A stretch of DNA of 20,983 nucleotides from a virus. Position 1 is the first letter of the stretch. Each line of letters begins with the position of its first letter. The translations under genes were made by a program, and so were the position numbers. The stretch lies in the IMG/VR virus record IMGVR_UViG_3300021142_001377, positions 1 to 20,983 of that record; one strand, 5' to 3'. The notes under the pieces are model-generated. The model worked only from the letters and a program-made list of their open reading frames with translations, made no database searches and was not told where the DNA came from. This document shows, piece after piece, positions 8,557 to 20,629 of this stretch.

Positions 8557-11500
8557 ATGGCAATCCAACTTTCAGGTGTTCAACTTGGCCCAATCGGAGG
8601 AGGTCCATCTTCTCTAAATCTTGAAGACTTACATGATGTATTAATTGTAACACCTCAAACCGGTCAGTATCTTAGATATAATAATGGTATCTTAGAATGG
8701 CAAAATTCATTTATAGATGAAGATGCCTATAAATTTCTTACAGGTACTAGTTTATCTGGTATAACTGGAACTGGATTGATCGGATCAAACGGTGTTCAAC
8801 TTACAGCACTTTCCGGGCCACAATCAATCACTGTTGCATTAGCTTTATCGACATCAGGTGATGCATCAGGTACGGTATCTGGCGGTGTTCTACCTATAAC
8901 ACTCGCAACAGTAAATGGTACAGTTGGTACATATGGTTCCTCTACTGCAATTCCTATTGTGACAGTAGATGCTAAAGGTCGAGTAACAAATGTTAGTACC
9001 GTATCGTTTGCTGGAACCGCGCCTTTAGCAACAAGTTTAGCTGCTGGCGCAACAGGTTCACTTCCGTATCAATCAGCAGCGTCAACAACAGCATTTTTAG
9101 CAGCAGGAACAACAAGTCAAGTGCTTGTATCCGGCGCAGCCGGACCAAGTTGGACAAATACACCAACATTAACCGGTACTAATTTTACCGGTGTACCAAA
9201 TGCAGCATTAGTTGGCTCAGGTTCATTGACAGTCGGTTCTACAAACATAGCGTTAGGTGCAACGGCACTGACATTAGCCGGATTGACTTCTGTCACAGCA
9301 ACAAATTTCTACGGTAATGCCGATACGACAACCACAGCAACAAATTCTATTATTACAGATGATACAGCTTCTGGTTCAAATATGTACCCTGTATGGGCTA
9401 CAGCAGCCGGAGCAAGTCGCCCATTAAAGATCACTAGTACAGGTTTATATTTTAAACCATCTACAGGTGTATTAACTGCAACTGTTTTTGCAGGATCTGG
9501 TGCAAGTTTAACAAATATCCCGAACAGTGCGTTGACAAATAGTTCTGTAACAATCGGTTCTACAGCAGTAGCACTTGGTGCAACTGTAACAACATTCGCT
9601 GGATTAACATCAGTTACATCAACTGGATTTACTGGTGCATTAACTGGTAACGCTTCTACAGCAACATTGGCAACCACAGCAACTAATGTTGGTGGCGGTA
9701 CTTCTGGTGCAATGCCTTATCAGACAGGTGTCGGTACAACTGCGTTATTGACAGCAGGTACTTCGAGTCAGGTTCTTACATCTGGTACAACACCGGGGTG
9801 GACAAATACACCGACACTTACTGGTACAAATTTCAGTGCTATCCCTAATGGAGCATTGTCAAACAGTTCGGTGACAGTTGGTTCTACAAGTATCAACCTC
9901 GGTGCGTCCGCAACAACCTTGGCTGGTTTAACATCAGTTACATCGACTGGATTTATTGGCGCATTAACTGGTAATGCAACTTCGGCAACGAATATTGCAG
10001 GCGGCGCAACAAACGGATTTCCATACCAATCAGGTGCAGGTGCTACCACATTCCTTGCACAAGGCACAGGTGTCTTGCAAGAAACAGCAGGCGCGCCGAG
10101 TTGGACAACAACACCGACATTAACTGGTACAAACTTTAGTGCTATTCCTAATGGAGCATTATCTAATAACACTGTAACAGTTGGTTCTACATCAATCGCA
10201 CTAGGTGCAACAGCTACTACTATCGCCGGATTAACATCAGTTACGTCAACTGGATTCACCGGCGCATTAACCGGCGCAGCAAGTGCAAACGTATTAAAGG
10301 CTGGTGATACAATGACTGGCCTATTGATATTAAGTGGTGATCCTACTACAGCATTAGGTGCTGCTACAAGACAATATGTCGATAATGCAGTTACTGGTCT
10401 AACATGGAAAGATGCGGCCAATTTGTTATCTAATGCTAATGTCCCATTAACTGGTACAGACTTAACAATCGATGGTCATCCTTCACTTACTCCGGCACAA
10501 GGTAATGGTTATCGTATATTATTAATCAATCAAACGACAGTTACAGAAGATGGCATATATACTGCTACCGTCACTGGATCAGTCGCTCCTTATGCATATT
10601 CACTTGCACGTTCATCTGATGCAGATACAAATGCAGAACTAATTGGTGCTTCTATATTTGTATTAGAAGGCACAGATTATGCTAATACCGGTTGGGTACA
10701 GTCTAATCACTATATAACTGGATTTGCAGGACAAAGTTGGGTACAATTTTCCGGATCTGGATCCTATTCAGGCGGTACTGGTATTAACGTATCAGGAACT
10801 ATTATTACCAATACTGGTGTTACAAGTGCATTAGCAGGAACAAATATTTCTGTATCCGGCGCAACAGGTGCAGTTACAATTGCTGTAACAGGTACAGTCC
10901 CAACAGCAACTACAGCAACTAATCTTGCAAGTGGTGCAGCAAATAGCTTACCTTATCAAACTGGCGCAGGTGCTACAACATTCCTTGCACAAGGCACAGG
11001 TGTTCTTGCCGAAACAGCAGGTGCCCCAAGTTGGACAACAACACCGACATTAACTGGCACTAATTTCACAGGCATACCAAATGGTGGCCTAACTAATAGC
11101 TCTGTAACGGTTGGTACAACAGCAATTGCATTAGGTGCAGCGGCAACAACTATCGCTGGCTTAACAAGTGTCACATCAACTGGATTTACTGGTGCATTAA
11201 CAGGCAACGCAACTACTGCTACTACAGCAACTAACCTTGCTAGTGGTGCGGCAGGGTCACATCCATACCAGACTGGTTCGGGCGCAACATCAATGTTGGC
11301 AGCAGGAACATCAAGTCAAGTTCTTATATCGGGAACAACACCTAGTTGGACAAATACTCCTACATTGACTGGTACCAATTTTACTGGTGTACCTAATAGT
11401 GCATTAACAAATAATTCTGTAACATTCGGTACTACTAATGTTGCATTAGGCGGCACATCGGCTTCTATTGTTGGACTAACTGGTGTAACAGCAACAACAT

Positions 11501-14500
11501 TCACTGGTGCATTAACTGGTAACGCTTCTACAGCAACAACAGCAACTAACTCTACCAATTCGGCAATCACCGATGATACATCATCTAATGCAGTAAAATA
11601 TATTACTTGGGTAGATTCAGTTAGTGGCAATAATCCGCAGAAGGTATCTAGTACACAGTTTACTATGAATCCGAGTACAGGTGTTGTAACAGCAACTGGC
11701 TTTGCAGGTTCAGGATCAGGACTTACAGGTATTCCAAATTCATCACTAACAAATAGTTCAGTAACAGTTGGTACAACATCTCTACCTTTAGGTGCAACAT
11801 CTACTACATTAGTTGGTTTAACTTCTGTTACATCAACAACATTTGTTGGTGCATTAAATGGTAATGCTAATACCGCAACAGCATTTGCAACAGGACGTAC
11901 AATTTCTGTATCAACTGATGCTACAGGAACTTCTGCTTCGTTTGATGGATCTGGCAACGCAACTATTCCTCTTACATTAGCAACAGTCAATTCAAACGTT
12001 GGATCATTCAGCGCATTCACTGTTAACGGTAAAGGTCTTATTACAGCAGCTTCGCATCTTGGAGCAACAGGCGATGTAACCGGAACAGAATCTGCAGGAA
12101 GTATTGCACTAACACTAGCAACAGTAAATTCTTCACCAGTTGCAGCTTCCTTCCAGAAGATTACTGTTAACGGTAAGGGCTTAACAACAGCAACATCGGC
12201 AGTATCAGCAAGCGATATTACTACAGCATTAACATTTACCCCAGTTAATAAGGCTGGCGATACAATGACAGGTTTATTGATATTAAGTGGTGATCCTACA
12301 AATGCACTTGGTGCGGTAACAAAACAATATGCTGATGCTATTGCATCTGGTGTAACGGTACATAATTCTTGTGAAACATCAACAACAGTAGCAGGTAATT
12401 TATCAGCTGCCACATACCTCAATGGTACAGGTGGTGTTGGTGCAACACTTACAGCTACAGCAAATGGATCAATTAATGCTCTCAATACAGGTACTGGTGT
12501 CGGCGGATATAATACATTAATAGTTGGTTCACGTGTCCTTGTTAAAGATCAAGCAACTACATATCAGAATGGTGTTTACGTAGTTTCTCAATTAGGTGTC
12601 ACTGGCATAAGTCCGTGGATATTAATAAGAGCAACTGACTTTGATGGTTCTCCATCAACAGAAATTGCAGCTGGTGTTCTTGTTTATGTACAAGAAGGTA
12701 CAAATAGTGGAACACAGTGGGTTGAAACAGCTATCGGCACCGGTCAGCCTGGTGATTATATTATTGTTGGTACTAATCCGGTAGTGTTTAGTCAATTTGC
12801 AGGTGCAGGCATATATACTTCAGGCTCGGGTATCAACATTGCAAGTAATGTTATTTCTAATACAGGCGTATTGAGTAACGTAGCAGGTACAGGTATTTCT
12901 GTGTCAGGTGCAACAGGTAACGTAACTATTGGTAATACCGGTGTGTTGAGCGCAGTAGCAGGAACAAATATTTCTGTATCTGGTGCAACAGGTAACGTAA
13001 CTATTGCAGTAACTGGTACTGTACCGAGCGCAACAAACTTAGCAAGTGGTGCAGCAAATAGCTTACCATACCAAACAGGCGCAGGTACTACAGCATTCCT
13101 TGCACAAGGCACAGGTGTTCTAGCTGAAACAGCCGGAGCCCCTTCTTGGACAACAACTCCAACACTTACTGGTACAAACTTTACAGGTATTCCAAACGGT
13201 GGCTTAACTAATAGTTCTGTAACAGTTGGTACAACCGCAATTTCATTAGGTGCAGCCCAAACAACTATCGCTGGTCTAGTATCGGTCACCTCGACGGGCT
13301 TTACCGGCGCATTAATTGGTAATGCTTCTAGTTCGACTTATGCAACCAACACAACAATCACCGATGATACAACTAATGCATCTATCGTTTATCCAACTTG
13401 GGTAACAGCCAACACAGGTAACATCGGACAGAAAGTATCAAGTACGAAGATGTCCTTTGTACCAAATACAGGTATCTTGAGTGCAACTGGTTTTGCAGGT
13501 AGCGGTGCAGGTTTAACGGCCATCCCAAATAGTTCATTAACAAATAGTTCAATCACATTTGGTGTAACTTCGCAGGCATTAGGATCAACAGTATCTACAT
13601 TAAGTGGATTGACATCTGTAGCAGCAACAACATTTACTGGTGCGTTAACTGGTAACGCTTCTACAGCAACAAACGTAGCAGGAACTGGTATCACTGGTAC
13701 TACACTTGCCTCGAACGTAGTTAATTCTTCATTAACATCTGTTGGTACAATTAGTTCTGGTACATGGTCTAGTGCATTCGGTGCAGTATCTGGTGCTAAT
13801 TTAACAAGTTTAACCGGTGCTAACGTAAGTGGTGCAGTTGGTTCTGCAACAAATATTGCTGCCGGTACAGCCAATCAAATCCCATACCAAACAGGTGCCG
13901 GTGCTACTTCGTTCTACAGTGCAGCTAATTACGGTGTTCATACCTATGGTGCTACTGGTACACCAGCCTCAGTTGCTGGCGCAGCAGGTGTATTGCAAGG
14001 ATCGGCAAGTGCAATCCCTGCATTTACAACAACTCCAACACTTACTGGTACAAACTTTACTGGTATACCAAATAGTGCATTGGTTGGATCAGGTGCATTA
14101 ACAGTTAATGGAACAAGTATTTCGTTAGGTGGAACAGCTACAGTAACAGCAGCAGCTGGTACGCTAACTGGTACCACACTTAATGCAACAGTCGTATCAT
14201 CTAGTTTAACATCTGTCGGAACAATTGCAACTGGTGTATGGAATGGAACAGCTATTGCAAATGCTAATCTAGCCAACAGCCAGGTTACAATCGGTTCTAC
14301 CGCTGTATCATTAGGTGCAACAGCTACAACTATCGCTGGTTTAACATCAGTTACATCAACCGGCTTTACTGGTGCATTAACTGGTGCAGCAAGTTCGAAC
14401 GTATTGAAAGCCGGTGATACAATGACTGGTTTATTAGTATTAAGTGCAGATCCGAGTGCAGCACTTGGCGCAGCAACAAAACAATATGTTGATAAGGTGG

Positions 14501-14949
14501 CACCTGGCCCAGCAACTGCTATCAACGCAACATCACAAACAACTGGCACATTTTATGTAGTCGGTGTCGCAGCAACTGGCTCAAATCAAACACCTAGCTG
14601 TGCAACCGGTGCATCAATTACTAACACAATTAGCTTTAATGCTGCTGATGGAACAGTTAACGCAGTGATATTCAACACAACGTCGGACAAAACACAGAAA
14701 ATGAATGTGGCGGATATTGTTAATGCGTCAGATACGATAAATAAATTACAAGGTGTAGAATTTGACTGGGTTAATAATGGCAATAAATCTTCCGGAGTTA
14801 TCGCTCAACAATTAGAATTAGTATTACCACACTTAGTAAATACTGATGCTAATGGATTAAAGAGTGTTAATTATGCAGGTATTACAGGATATTTAATTGA
14901 GGCAATTAAGGAACTTCGATCAGAGTTAGAACTATTCAAGGGTAAATAA
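8557..14949 (+). CDS. Giant modular tail fibre with S74 chaperone domain
   Basis: 2130 residues; ATG preceded by ACGGAG. The body is made of Ser/Thr/Gly/Ala-rich beta-repeat modules. The unit TPTLTGTNFTGIPNGALTNS, followed by SVTVGSTAIALGATATT and GLTSVTSTGFTGALTGNA, recurs with variations: seven units keep the TLTGTNF start and about eleven keep the later part. Three copies of a KAGDTMTGLLILSGDPT plus ALGAATKQYVD motif occur (about residues 575-610, 1230-1265 and 1950-1985). The first two are followed by larger inserted domains (for example TEDGIYTATVTGS and KDQATTYQNGVYVVSQ). The last 90 residues form a Peptidase_S74 domain (TTSDKTQKMN, GVIAQQLELVLPHLV, LIEAIKELRSELELF), which folds and trimerises fibres and self-cleaves. 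By size it is probably the long tail fibre. Repeats invite recombination and length change. Confidence 0.9.
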   Translation: MAIQLSGVQLGPIGGGPSSLNLEDLHDVLIVTPQTGQYLRYNNGILEWQNSFIDEDAYKFLTGTSLSGITGTGLIGSNGVQLTALSGPQSITVALALSTSGDASGTVSGGVLPITLATVNGTVGTYGSSTAIPIVTVDAKGRVTNVSTVSFAGTAPLATSLAAGATGSLPYQSAASTTAFLAAGTTSQVLVSGAAGPSWTNTPTLTGTNFTGVPNAALVGSGSLTVGSTNIALGATALTLAGLTSVTATNFYGNADTTTTATNSIITDDTASGSNMYPVWATAAGASRPLKITSTGLYFKPSTGVLTATVFAGSGASLTNIPNSALTNSSVTIGSTAVALGATVTTFAGLTSVTSTGFTGALTGNASTATLATTATNVGGGTSGAMPYQTGVGTTALLTAGTSSQVLTSGTTPGWTNTPTLTGTNFSAIPNGALSNSSVTVGSTSINLGASATTLAGLTSVTSTGFIGALTGNATSATNIAGGATNGFPYQSGAGATTFLAQGTGVLQETAGAPSWTTTPTLTGTNFSAIPNGALSNNTVTVGSTSIALGATATTIAGLTSVTSTGFTGALTGAASANVLKAGDTMTGLLILSGDPTTALGAATRQYVDNAVTGLTWKDAANLLSNANVPLTGTDLTIDGHPSLTPAQGNGYRILLINQTTVTEDGIYTATVTGSVAPYAYSLARSSDADTNAELIGASIFVLEGTDYANTGWVQSNHYITGFAGQSWVQFSGSGSYSGGTGINVSGTIITNTGVTSALAGTNISVSGATGAVTIAVTGTVPTATTATNLASGAANSLPYQTGAGATTFLAQGTGVLAETAGAPSWTTTPTLTGTNFTGIPNGGLTNSSVTVGTTAIALGAAATTIAGLTSVTSTGFTGALTGNATTATTATNLASGAAGSHPYQTGSGATSMLAAGTSSQVLISGTTPSWTNTPTLTGTNFTGVPNSALTNNSVTFGTTNVALGGTSASIVGLTGVTATTFTGALTGNASTATTATNSTNSAITDDTSSNAVKYITWVDSVSGNNPQKVSSTQFTMNPSTGVVTATGFAGSGSGLTGIPNSSLTNSSVTVGTTSLPLGATSTTLVGLTSVTSTTFVGALNGNANTATAFATGRTISVSTDATGTSASFDGSGNATIPLTLATVNSNVGSFSAFTVNGKGLITAASHLGATGDVTGTESAGSIALTLATVNSSPVAASFQKITVNGKGLTTATSAVSASDITTALTFTPVNKAGDTMTGLLILSGDPTNALGAVTKQYADAIASGVTVHNSCETSTTVAGNLSAATYLNGTGGVGATLTATANGSINALNTGTGVGGYNTLIVGSRVLVKDQATTYQNGVYVVSQLGVTGISPWILIRATDFDGSPSTEIAAGVLVYVQEGTNSGTQWVETAIGTGQPGDYIIVGTNPVVFSQFAGAGIYTSGSGINIASNVISNTGVLSNVAGTGISVSGATGNVTIGNTGVLSAVAGTNISVSGATGNVTIAVTGTVPSATNLASGAANSLPYQTGAGTTAFLAQGTGVLAETAGAPSWTTTPTLTGTNFTGIPNGGLTNSSVTVGTTAISLGAAQTTIAGLVSVTSTGFTGALIGNASSSTYATNTTITDDTTNASIVYPTWVTANTGNIGQKVSSTKMSFVPNTGILSATGFAGSGAGLTAIPNSSLTNSSITFGVTSQALGSTVSTLSGLTSVAATTFTGALTGNASTATNVAGTGITGTTLASNVVNSSLTSVGTISSGTWSSAFGAVSGANLTSLTGANVSGAVGSATNIAAGTANQIPYQTGAGATSFYSAANYGVHTYGATGTPASVAGAAGVLQGSASAIPAFTTTPTLTGTNFTGIPNSALVGSGALTVNGTSISLGGTATVTAAAGTLTGTTLNATVVSSSLTSVGTIATGVWNGTAIANANLANSQVTIGSTAVSLGATATTIAGLTSVTSTGFTGALTGAASSNVLKAGDTMTGLLVLSADPSAALGAATKQYVDKVAPGPATAINATSQTTGTFYVVGVAATGSNQTPSCATGASITNTISFNAADGTVNAVIFNTTSDKTQKMNVADIVNASDTINKLQGVEFDWVNNGNKSSGVIAQQLELVLPHLVNTDANGLKSVNYAGITGYLIEAIKELRSELELFKGK

Positions 14950-15027: not shown

Positions 15028-15885
15028 ATGTCAATAAAAATAAGTGGAACGGTCGTAATAGACGATTCAAGAGCAATCAGCGGAACATCAGTGACCGCAT
15101 CGAGTTTCATAGGAACAGCAGCCACCGGTGCACTAAATATGCCAACCGGAACTACTGCTCAACGTCCGGTACCGGCTGCTGGAATGATTCGGATGAATTC
15201 AACTACAGGTTTACCCGAATGGTATTCATCTGCTTATGGTTTTTGGATACCATTTAATAGTTCCAGACCAGTACCTAATATAGGTGATTCATTCCAAGGC
15301 GGGTATTTTGCCGGATACATCTCGTATGCAGGTACCGGCGTAGCAAGTCATTATTTAATTGTATCACCCAAAGCATCTGGTGAAACAACAGCGGCCTGGG
15401 ACAGTACAGGCGGCGGATCAACTACCGGTGCCACTTCATTATACGACGGAGCCGCAAATACTGCTGCTATTCCGGCGGATGCCAGATATGCTGCTGCACA
15501 ATTTGTTAAGGGGTTATCAATCGGCGGATACACTGACTGGTATATTCCGGCCAAAAACGAATTAGAAGTAGCATACTACTTTTTGAAAAATGTAACGCAA
15601 AATAATTATTCACCAGGAACCTATGGATCAAATGCCAATGCTGTATCACCGGAACCAATCTCAACTACATATACAGCAACAGTTCCGGGCCAAACTACTG
15701 TTACCGCATTTCAAGTCGGCAATTCCGAGGCGTTTGCCGACTACTACTTCTGGTCAAGTACAGAGTACTCTGCTACGTACTCGTGGAACCAGTACTTCTA
15801 CTCTGGCTACCCGGGTTACCAGGACTACTACTACACTAAGACGAATGCGCTCTATGTTCGTGCGTTTAGGCGTTTAGCCATTTAG
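15028..15885 (+). CDS. DGR target: tail protein with C-type-lectin-like variable domain
   Basis: 285 residues with a strong AAGGAG ribosome site. The N-terminal 85 residues are fibre/attachment-like (TAQRPVPAAGMIRMNSTTGL, EWYSSAYGFWIPF). From about residue 90 to the end is a DUF1566/FGE-type C-lectin-like fold: GDSFQGGYFAGYISY, GGYTDWYIPAKNELEVAY, FWSSTEYSAT and the closing strand LYVRAFRRL, as in other DGR variable proteins where a conserved VRxxR strand anchors the fold. The variable repeat covers nt 15729-15870, that is residues about 235-281, leaving only five residues after it. Eleven Tyr in this region correspond to Asn codons in the template. Likely a receptor-binding protein whose ligand site is rewritten by the retroelement. 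Confidence 0.92.
   Translation: MSIKISGTVVIDDSRAISGTSVTASSFIGTAATGALNMPTGTTAQRPVPAAGMIRMNSTTGLPEWYSSAYGFWIPFNSSRPVPNIGDSFQGGYFAGYISYAGTGVASHYLIVSPKASGETTAAWDSTGGGSTTGATSLYDGAANTAAIPADARYAAAQFVKGLSIGGYTDWYIPAKNELEVAYYFLKNVTQNNYSPGTYGSNANAVSPEPISTTYTATVPGQTTVTAFQVGNSEAFADYYFWSSTEYSATYSWNQYFYSGYPGYQDYYYTKTNALYVRAFRRLAI
15729..15870 (+). repeat. DGR variable repeat (VR)
   Basis: 142 bases aligned to TR 16385-16523 (139 bases) with one 3-base gap. There are 14 substitutions, all at TR adenines (11 A to T, 2 A to C, 1 A to G) and none at C, G or T. The invariant 3' end, TATGTTCGTGCGTTTAGG, is the likely initiation-of-mutagenic-homology segment; VR and TR diverge right after it (cgttta versus tggtag). 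Confidence 0.95.
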
Positions 15886-15904
15886 TCATTTAAATATTTG
15901 AAAT

Positions 15905-16258
15905 ATGGCACAATATCAACATCTTCCAATTTACAAAACAACCTATCAGTTGTTGGAAACAGTAACCCGAAGAACCAAAGATTTCCCCAGAGATTTTAAA
16001 TATTCTCTCGGTGATAAAATACGAAACGAGTGTATTGAATTAGTGGTATCAATATACAAAGCAAATTCCACTAAACAACGACAGGAGTTTATACAGAATA
16101 TATTGGACAGAGTACAAGTAATTGAATTAATGCTAAGATTATCCAAAGACTTACATCTGTTATCAGTAGACAGTTTTTCCGAAATAGTCACCCTGACTGA
16201 CTCGCTTGCGCGTCAGGCACAGGGATGGATCAATCATTCAAATTTGAGGGCAGAATGA
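15905..16258 (+). CDS. avd: Accessory variability determinant (Avd), four-helix bundle
   Basis: 117 residues. LPIYKTTYQLLETV, then TKDFPRDFKYSLGDKIRNEC, IELVVSIYKAN, VQVIELMLRLSKDLHLLS and QAQGWINH follow the typical sequence of the Avd/S23-type four-helix-bundle family. In the Bordetella phage BPP-1 DGR, Avd forms a positively charged pentamer that binds the reverse transcriptase and template RNA and is needed for mutagenic retrohoming. It lies 19 bases after the target gene and 126 bases before TR, the classic target-avd-TR-RT order. No clear Shine-Dalgarno precedes the ATG (aaatatttgaaat), so translation may depend on read-through from the target gene or be low. Confidence 0.92.
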   Translation: MAQYQHLPIYKTTYQLLETVTRRTKDFPRDFKYSLGDKIRNECIELVVSIYKANSTKQRQEFIQNILDRVQVIELMLRLSKDLHLLSVDSFSEIVTLTDSLARQAQGWINHSNLRAE

Positions 16259-16537
16259 TAATGGCTACGGCGATTATCAGCGACCTATCTATCGCGGGCC
16301 ATGACCGTTGGGAAACCAACGAAAAGGCGCAAGCCAGTCGTCATATGGAGTATTCTGTGTGGCGTCGTGTGAGTGCATGGCCTTGGCGTTTGCCGACAAC
16401 AACTTCTGGTCAAGTACAGAGAACTCTGCTACGAACTCGTGGAACCAGAACTTCAACTCTGGCAACCCGGGTAACCAGAACAACAACAATAAGACGAATG
16501 CGAACTATGTTCGTGCGTTTAGGTGGTAGAATCAAAT
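16256..16537 (+). ncRNA. DGR template RNA region (approximate limits)
   Basis: The stretch from the avd stop to the RT start has no supported protein. It carries TR plus foldable sequence: hairpin 16256-16279 (TGATAAT/ATTATCA, starting at the avd stop codon), a long-range stem 16297-16303/16376-16382 (GGCCATG/CATGGCC), and inside it a hairpin 16306-16321 with stem CGTTGG/CCAACG and a GAAA tetraloop. In studied DGRs the functional RNA includes TR and flanking segments, and extends into avd and RT. True ends are unknown; I give only the intergenic part. Confidence 0.6.
16385..16523 (+). repeat. DGR template repeat (TR)
   Basis: 139 bases homologous to VR. It is rich in AAC triplets (13 in the frame matching VR), the hallmark of adenine-directed diversification. 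It starts GGCGTTTGCC and ends GCGTTTAGG. Translated in the VR frame it would read FADNNFWSSTENSATNSWNQ and so on to a TAG stop, but it is a template, not a gene. It ends 14 bases before the RT ATG. Confidence 0.95.
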
Positions 16538-17647
16538 ATGAAATCTGATCTGACAGTTTCGGAACTTTTTCAAGCGTACTATGATTGTCGAAAAACAAAA
16601 CGCAATACATGGAATGCTCTTGAATTTGAAGAAAAATTAGAGCGAAACCTGATGGATTTGTATTATGAACTAATTGAGAATTCGTATCAACCGGGTCGAT
16701 CAATTATGTTTGTGGTTACCCGGCCGAAAGCTCGGGAAGTATGGGCTGCTAACTTTCGGGATCGTATTGTGCATGATGTGTTATATAATCGTCACTCGCC
16801 GGCATTTTATCGATCATTTATACACGATAGTTATGCCTGTATACCGGAAAAAGGCACGCTCAATGCCTCTAATCGTGTACAGTACTTCATGCGTTCGGCA
16901 ACAAAAAATCATACTATATCTGCATGGTATATGAAGGCAGATGTTGCCAACTTTTTTGTATCCATTAATAAATCAATACTCGATGAATTGTTGGCAAGAA
17001 AAATCACCGATCCATGGTGGCTACAATTAACCCGAACTATTTTACACAAAGATCCAACCGAAAATGTATTCATAAAAAGTAAATCCGATATGTTATCGAA
17101 GGTGCCACCGCATAAGAGTTTACTTAATGCACCTAAAGGATTCGGCTTGCCGATTGGTAATTTGTCTAGTCAGTTTTTCGCTAATGTATATCTTGACCCA
17201 CTCGATCAGTACGCAAAGCATACACTTAAATTAGAATACTATGCCCGGTATGTGGATGATATCATGGCTGTTGACAAAAACGGCACAGAGCTGCATGAAA
17301 AATATGACCGCATGGCAATTTTCGCTAAAGATAATTTAGGATTAAGTTTCCACCCGAACAAAAAAGAAATAAATAAAGTTGAACACGGGGTTAACTTTGT
17401 CGGGTATATCATTAAACCTAGATGTAAGTATGTGCGTAGATCAACGATAAAGAATATGTATTATAAGACTGGTCATTGTGAAGATTTTGAATCCTTACGG
17501 GCAACAACCAATAGTTATTTCGGAATGTTACGCCACGCCGATGCATACACAGAACGGAAAAGATTTGCTAAACAACTCGGTGCAAAGGGTGCATGGTTTG
17601 ACAGAAAATTAACTAAATTAAAAGGAATCGAATTATGTATATCATAG
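16538..17647 (+). CDS. DGR reverse transcriptase
   Basis: 369 residues from ATG 16538. A GTG at 16523 in the same frame lies on the last base of TR and is a less likely start; AGGTGG at 16521-16526 can serve as Shine-Dalgarno for the ATG. RT motifs in order: VVTRPKAREVWAANFRDRIV (fingers), YMKADVANFF (motif A, D135), GLPIGNLSSQ (residues 203-212, DGR/group-II-like motif 4), FANVYLDPLDQY, YYARYVDDIMAV (catalytic YVDD, 238-241), and HPNKKEINKVEHGVNFVGYI (motifs D and E). Length fits DGR RTs (about 300-400 residues) and there is no maturase or endonuclease domain. The enzyme copies TR RNA with errors at adenines and the cDNA replaces VR. The 3' end overlaps the next gene by 13 bases. Confidence 0.95.
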   Translation: MKSDLTVSELFQAYYDCRKTKRNTWNALEFEEKLERNLMDLYYELIENSYQPGRSIMFVVTRPKAREVWAANFRDRIVHDVLYNRHSPAFYRSFIHDSYACIPEKGTLNASNRVQYFMRSATKNHTISAWYMKADVANFFVSINKSILDELLARKITDPWWLQLTRTILHKDPTENVFIKSKSDMLSKVPPHKSLLNAPKGFGLPIGNLSSQFFANVYLDPLDQYAKHTLKLEYYARYVDDIMAVDKNGTELHEKYDRMAIFAKDNLGLSFHPNKKEINKVEHGVNFVGYIIKPRCKYVRRSTIKNMYYKTGHCEDFESLRATTNSYFGMLRHADAYTERKRFAKQLGAKGAWFDRKLTKLKGIELCIS

Positions 17648-20386: not shown

Positions 20387-20460
20387 TCGGGTGTTGTGTA
20401 ATGGTAGCACAACAGACTTTGACTCTGTTAGCGAAGGTTCGATTCCTTCCACGGTGACCA
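20387..20460 (+). tRNA. tRNA-Gln (UUG), disrupted acceptor stem
   Basis: 74 bases ending in encoded CCA. D stem GTGT/GCAC, anticodon stem ACAGA/TCTGT, loop CTTTGAC (TTG), T arm GAAGG-TTCGATT-CCTTC are all sound. The acceptor (TCGGGTG against CACGGTG) has three consecutive mismatches at pairs 2-4, so function is uncertain. It is the first tRNA after the endonuclease insertion. Confidence 0.7.
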
Positions 20461-20554: not shown

Positions 20555-20629
20555 ACTCCCGTCGTCTAATGGCTAGGATAACTGACCTTCAATCAGTGGA
20601 AGACGGATCGAAACCGTTCGGGAGTACCA
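20555..20629 (+). tRNA. tRNA-Glu (UUC)
   Basis: 75 bases with encoded CCA. Acceptor ACTCCCG/CGGGAGT is perfect. GTCGTCTAATGGCTAGGATA is a typical Glu-type D arm. Anticodon stem ACTGA/TCAGT, loop CCTTCAA with TTC; position 33 is C rather than the near-universal T. T loop ATCGAAA also has A54. Confidence 0.85.

Follow-up and report, generated by a model that had tools for sequence, protein, structure and literature searches.

The window, that is, the whole stretch of DNA analysed here, spans 20983 bases of a virus record in IMG/VR and carries a DGR made up of a target gene, avd, a template repeat (TR) and a reverse transcriptase (RT), all on the plus strand. The target gene (15028..15885, an ORF) has the VR at its 3' end (15729-15870, the start placed by a repeat script and the end read on the sequence), and its product gives a match to Pfam Lcl_C (E 5e-8, 33.7 bits) that lies below the cut-off of 34.9. 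It is followed by avd (15905..16258), which matches Pfam bAvd (PF22296, E 6e-13) above the cut-off, by TR (16385..16523, from the TR/VR repeat script, with the 3' end read on the sequence), and by RT (16538..17647; Pfam RVT_1, E 9e-14), whose start at 16538 is separated by 14 nt from the last base of TR at 16523. The closest solved relative of this RT is that of BPP-1 (8ub7, E 4e-40), and it carries an IGxxxSQ motif, which we take to be typical of DGRs. Over 105 ungapped nt, TR and VR differ by 12 mismatches at template A and by none at other bases. Read from the sequence, the element is therefore a DGR by its RT, Avd and TR/VR. Elsewhere in the window are two tRNA genes (20391-20452 and 20555-20626), a repetitive ORF of 2130 aa (8557-14949) and a 447-aa ORF with GAT repeats (137-1480), the two ORFs being by their look probably fibre proteins.

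The VR exceeds TR by one codon in a stretch of AAC repeats (VR 15820-15841; TR 16475-16493), perhaps through slippage during reverse transcription. Just 3' of the VR (15871-15897), the window reads GTTTAGC CATTTAGT CATTTAAA, and in most close relatives this flank consists of tandem T-rich octamers, e.g. CCTTTAAT CCTTTAAT. In BPP-1, a stem-loop has been reported at the VR flank. No constant stem-loop of this kind was predicted after the VR in the flanks of the window's relatives, though a strong hairpin does occur in some loci about 30 nt further on. The T-rich octamers are possibly the target-site signal of the window's clade.

Directly 5' of TR lies a structured domain, of which a first-pass annotation had picked out several elements. 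It begins with a conserved leader, GGCAGAA (16249..16255, from alignments), that is common to the 3' spacer of BPP-1-like DGRs, followed by the hairpin P1 (16256..16279; arms TGATAAT/ATTATCA, UACG loop), which starts, as annotated, at the avd stop, the TGA at 16256-16258 lying inside its 5' arm. After a strand that we call a' (16288..16295) comes P2, whose 5' strand GGCCATG (16297..16303) pairs with CATGGCC (16376..16382). This helix encloses P3 (16306..16321; CGTTGG-GAAA-CCAACG), exactly as had been noted, as well as P4 (16326..16335; GGC-GCAA-GCC), P5 (16339..16364) and a conserved single strand, TCGTGTGAGTG, that runs from P5 to P2 (16365..16375). P2 ends two bases before TR, as TT occupies 16383-16384 and the identity between TR and VR starts at 16385. 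P4, P5 and a long-range helix formed by a' with the 3' end of TR (16288-16295/16523-16530) add to the elements on the earlier list.

Folding of 16190-16640, the check that had been proposed for this region, gave -149.6 kcal/mol (z -5.38), and none of 100 shuffles was as low. Mean pair probabilities, calculated for 16249-16534, were 1.00 for P1, 0.98 for P2, 0.99 for P3, 0.84 for P4 and 0.98 for P5.

Relatives were gathered from viral contigs, genome contigs and phage records, with the RT protein as the query. A first alignment of 21 loci displayed compensatory change in 26 of the 33 predicted pairs. With 29 loci and 44 pairs, including those of the long-range helix, 91.7% of cells are paired, against 69.9% in shuffles and at most 46.3% with slid partners; both sides have changed in 37 of the 44 pairs, against 24.7 in shuffles, and the covariation score is 0.661, against 0.236 in shuffles and at most 0.152 with slid partners. 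Across these 29 loci, both-side changes affect all nine counted pairs of P1 (96.6% of cells paired), six of seven in P2 (96.1%), four of six in P3 (95.9%) and nine of the ten outer pairs of P5 (88.3%), where one pair fails in 23 loci; in P4, 98.9% of cells are paired. The main helices are not found broken without compensation in the relatives, and the fold directly 5' of TR proposed in the first-pass annotation is borne out as one that covaries and has been maintained in evolution.

The same region overlaps an ORF (16225-16548), and one may ask whether the domain is a coding or DNA-level feature, its inverted repeats included, and not a functional RNA. Frame 0 of the domain is in fact open in 22 of the 29 loci. 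However, differences are spread evenly over the three codon positions (308, 360 and 311, in 36 pairs among nine close loci), several loci have stops, the lengths of the domain leave all three remainders on division by 3, and G-U pairs are frequent in the helices of the 29 loci. We rejected the coding explanation on account of the even codon-position differences and the stops, and the broader idea of a coding or DNA-level feature appears to us scarcely credible. By comparison of these loci, the domain is a conserved RNA.

Two of the finer points of the annotation fared less well. The hairpin GGC-GTTT-GCC on the first bases of TR is present at 16385-16394, but all three of its pairs are kept in 3 of 29 loci only (37 of 87 cells paired, gaps being counted as unpaired), and its occurrence on TR codons looks like chance. 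The GAAA loop of P3 had been taken to suggest a tertiary contact, a proposal that we abandoned, as the loop is variable: GAAA is found in four and any GNRA in six of the 29 P3 loops. The more constant loops are those of P1, which reads YA[C/A]G in 27 of 29 loci, and of P4, which is GNRA in 15 of 29, and not that of P3.

The strands of the long-range helix, a' (16288-16295) and a (16523..16530, at the 3' boundary of TR), are about 230 nt apart, and all eight a/a' pairs are contained in the minimum-energy fold of the window RNA (16249-16534). In a swap test at a fixed register, which drew on 33 loci of the window's clade with 29 distinct strand pairs among them, own partners scored 9.07 against 4.30 for swapped ones (sd 0.87, z 5.5), a value that was not reached in 5000 permutations; the swap tests ignore relatedness, for which the other registers serve as a control, and here the twelve other registers gave z of at most 3.0. 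In the alignment, 82.5% of a/a' cells are paired, against at most 56.1% with slid partners, and six of the eight pairs have changed on both sides, while its pair types are no more numerous than in shuffles. In a sister subfamily (122 hand-listed loci, with anchors found in 104 and missed in 18; 96 distinct loci), the test gave 14.75 against 11.30 (sd 0.27, z 13.0; 0 of 2000). One position of the helix is there T-A in 43 loci, G-C in 28, C-G in 13 and A-T in 4, and the adjacent one is paired in 50 of 96, its 5' strand being mostly A. Covariation shows a/a' pairing in both the window's clade and the sister subfamily. In class C, a third group discussed below, shuffles were as high in 222 of 5000 cases (4 loci), and the helix is no more than suggestive. 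A mismatch recurs and is tolerated in both subfamilies at one place of the helix (16290/16528 in the window), 5' of a near-invariant adenine. This adenine, 16291 of a', does not vary in the alignment of 29 loci and occurs in 95 of the 96 loci of the sister subfamily.

The helix coincides with the boundary of the repeats. Among 33 loci tried, the VR was found by script in 28, and in all 28 the identity between TR and VR extends to the AGG/CGG/CGC triplet where the helix begins, with one mismatch in L163 just before the triplet. The VR was not found by this script in the window, L017, L024, L131 and L141; the extra codon of the VR accounts for the miss in the window, where the boundary was read on the sequence. 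The helix is therefore located where cDNA synthesis should begin.

The a strand also overlaps a sequence resembling a ribosome-binding site, AGGTGG (16521-16526), 11 nt before the ATG of RT, and translation of RT and use of the template could therefore exclude each other. In close relatives, AGGAGAT occupies this position. The helix might then be a translation switch that hides the ribosome-binding site of RT and makes the RNA either messenger or template, with priming relying on something else. We consider this improbable, since the sister subfamily, which has the strongest helix, reads CGCAGAT, without ribosome-binding consensus, the corresponding helix of BPP-1-like loci lies about 150-200 nt from the RT start, and the helix begins at the TR/VR boundary. 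A switch and a role in priming could nonetheless coexist.

To follow the distribution of the 5' domain, we used R1, a covariance model of it built from 21 loci. It matches 28 of the 29 close loci, among which the 21 do so by construction, the exception being L009, with 46 nt upstream of RT. With E limited to 1, R1 also detected the domain in 54 of 68 additional viral loci and in 53 of 80 loci from genomes, the latter labelled mostly as Burkholderiales, Pseudomonas and related bacteria. There is one stray R1 match, in L019. Rfam, group II introns included, yielded no match at gathering score in the region, and at E up to 5 a single chance-level one (E 4.6, minus strand).

A TR placed immediately before RT is the rule in this clade. 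Among 157 window-clade loci tried, TR and VR were found in 142, and in 135 of these 0-60 nt separate TR from the RT match; the gap is -1 in two and exceeds 120 in five (L087, L189, L201, L217 and L218). The related RTs of L201, L210 and L234 (labelled Gastranaerophilales, roe deer reticulum bacterium and cyanobacterium) have no TR visible directly upstream. In an RT tree of 75 rows, which is unrooted and has BPP-1 as a long branch, 26 RTs of loci with a spacer and 49 RTs with the upstream domain split at one branch with a support of 100/100. A third group, class C (L027-L039), is also spacer-less; the motifs of its upstream domain are different, and R1 matched none of its 13 loci. This class C domain upstream of TR is conserved and distinct, with TCACTGGGCGC and GGTATRAGAAMACAGG, and by eye resembles the GCCAGAA and GAACA(C)AGG of spacers.

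According to PMC12875486, the spacer of BPP-1 is located 3' of TR, is folded and recruits bRT-Avd, and an internal adenine primes cDNA at the 3' junction of TR. The DGR of the window does not have such a structured spacer between TR and RT. Out of 39 BPP-1-like loci, R1 matches six, always inside the TR-RT spacer and via its P1 part, which in these spacers comprises GCCAGAA, a hairpin with a YA[C/A]GG loop, and CAGYG; the likeness of P1 is thus to the first hairpin of the spacer. Conversely, R2, a model of the spacer hairpin from which the misaligned L042 was left out, was searched against 74 sources (33 close loci, 31 of the sister subfamily, nine of class C, and BPP-1) and gave 24 matches, 22 of them on the P1 of 5' domains (in L219 displaced by four bases with respect to the R1 start). 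The cross-matches between R1 and R2 are individually weak, with E from 0.005 to 5. A model of the whole spacer, R3, recovers held-out spacers and in 5' domains matches nothing but P1, in two loci (E 0.037 and 0.42), and the R3 search detected no homology of P2-P5 to the spacer; these helices may therefore be new structure. BPP-1 itself, searched with R2 and R3, gave no match.

The strand that follows P1 in spacers also pairs with the 3' end of TR. In BPP-1-like loci, the swap test gave 14.96 against 12.79 (sd 0.49, 0 of 5000) for 26 of the 39 loci, near-duplicates together with L053 and L054 being left out and L041, L063 and L079, which have no anchor motifs, being kept at default offsets. In the BPP-1 family (40 loci, with L243, L304 and L306 skipped), it gave 11.82 against 9.81 (sd 0.44, 0 of 5000) at a register set by what we take to be the priming residue, A56, beside the adjoining template residue, G117. 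Given the P1 matches in spacers and this pairing of the TR end, P1 and a' therefore occur on either side of TR.

Such likeness might also have arisen by convergence, or because a hairpin that binds Avd or RT was captured separately, with no relocation. The homology is detected over about 40 nt only, and no spacer counterpart of P2-P5 was found, as one would expect if so. On the other hand, the leader, the loop, the trailing CAGYG and the following a' strand are the same in both layouts, and R2 falls almost always on P1. We thus hold convergence or capture to be unlikely, if less so than the translation switch. Relocation as an evolutionary event is what we infer from the shared module.

With good confidence, we propose that the element probably makes a permuted, retron-like DGR RNA, in which the 5' domain would bind RT-Avd and hold the 3' end of TR for priming. 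Its order is P1, the guide strand a', a P2-closed junction with P3, P4 and P5, and then TR, whose 3' end (a) folds back onto a'; this pairing would close TR into a loop and keep its 3' end beside the structured domain. The P1-a' module, 3' of TR in the BPP-1-type spacer, would here have come to lie 5' of TR, with the spacer gone. By analogy with BPP-1, RT-Avd would bind the 5' domain, the a/a' duplex would occupy the active site of RT, cDNA synthesis into TR would be primed by a residue on the 3' side of a', and P2, two bases upstream of TR, would probably stop RT. Candidates for the priming residue are adenine 16291, by its conservation, and 16293-16296, by the BPP-1 register; in the BPP-1 family, the presumed primer residue forms the last pair of the TR-end helix, to which 16293-16296 would correspond here. 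We count against the permuted RNA that only P1 and a' are common to the 5' domain and the spacer, and also the weakness of the single R1-R2 cross-matches, the lack of R2 and R3 matches in BPP-1, the often mismatched position and the pair-type count of a/a', the overlap of a with AGGTGG, the weak class C signal and the conservation at the start of RT described next.

One further observation concerns the start of RT. Over its codons 1-25 (16538-16612), four-fold sites are identical in 89 of 154 comparisons among eight close loci, against 719 of 2293 overall, and this synonymous conservation makes a further element 3' of TR possible. The 5' domain might accordingly bind RT-Avd or halt cDNA synthesis, while the primer strand would lie 3' of TR, within the RT coding sequence. 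We judge this to have little chance of being right, since no conserved pairs were predicted in the 5' coding region of RT in either subfamily, and the 3' end of TR is already paired with a covarying strand of the 5' domain. For the permuted RNA, the broader proposal that we think fairly likely is that a clade of DGRs from phages and mostly proteobacteria carries its RT-recruiting and primer-holding module before the template, that this goes back to one change of layout, and that the template-end helix is a common principle of DGR priming in both layouts.

Knowledge of DGR priming derives from BPP-1, with its essential structured RNA 3' of the template. The spacer-less clade must start cDNA synthesis via a rearranged RNA or otherwise, and the domain and helix described here propose which route is taken, with every pair testable by compensatory mutation. 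The presence of a conserved RNA before the template together with a long-range helix suggests a rearranged start of mutagenic copying. Covariation also allows the template-end helix of DGRs to be located from sequences, with no need for biochemistry.

Comparison with known systems defines what is shared. As in the BPP-1 DGR RNA, there are a DGR RT, Avd and a TR/VR pair with change at A only, a P1-like hairpin (with a CTACGG loop in BPP-1), and a strand after P1 that pairs with the 3' end of TR. However, hairpin and strand are 3' of TR in BPP-1 and both 5' of TR in the window, and BPP-1 has a 144-nt spacer, with avd ending at the base before TR, whereas in the window RT follows TR after 14 nt. 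In the excerpted text of PMC3521204, DiGReF gene-order group 3 has TR overlapping the RT frame; the window's clade likewise has a TR that abuts or overlaps RT, but that text describes the group as a gene order only, without an upstream RNA domain or long-range helix. At title and abstract level, we found no report of DGRs with a structured RNA domain upstream or with a permuted template RNA, Handa 2025, Naorem 2017, Wu 2018 and Handa 2018 being outside this scope, and the portions at hand of PMC8144416, PMC8867640, PMC10907252 and PMC6642488 do not mention an upstream domain.

The closest parallel in layout is offered by retrons. Their msr-msd RNA consists of a 5' strand, a structured RNA, the template and a 3' strand. 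The window has the same arrangement of a structured RNA 5' of the template, and through the a/a' helix the 3' end of its template is paired with a strand that precedes the structured RNA, next to the presumed priming site. It differs in that its RT is a DGR RT by the closest solved relative (8ub7) and in having Avd, TR/VR and the signature of mutagenic homing. The element is best called a new variant of DGR RNA that resembles retron topology, and covariation in this way links the RNA architecture of DGRs with that of retrons.
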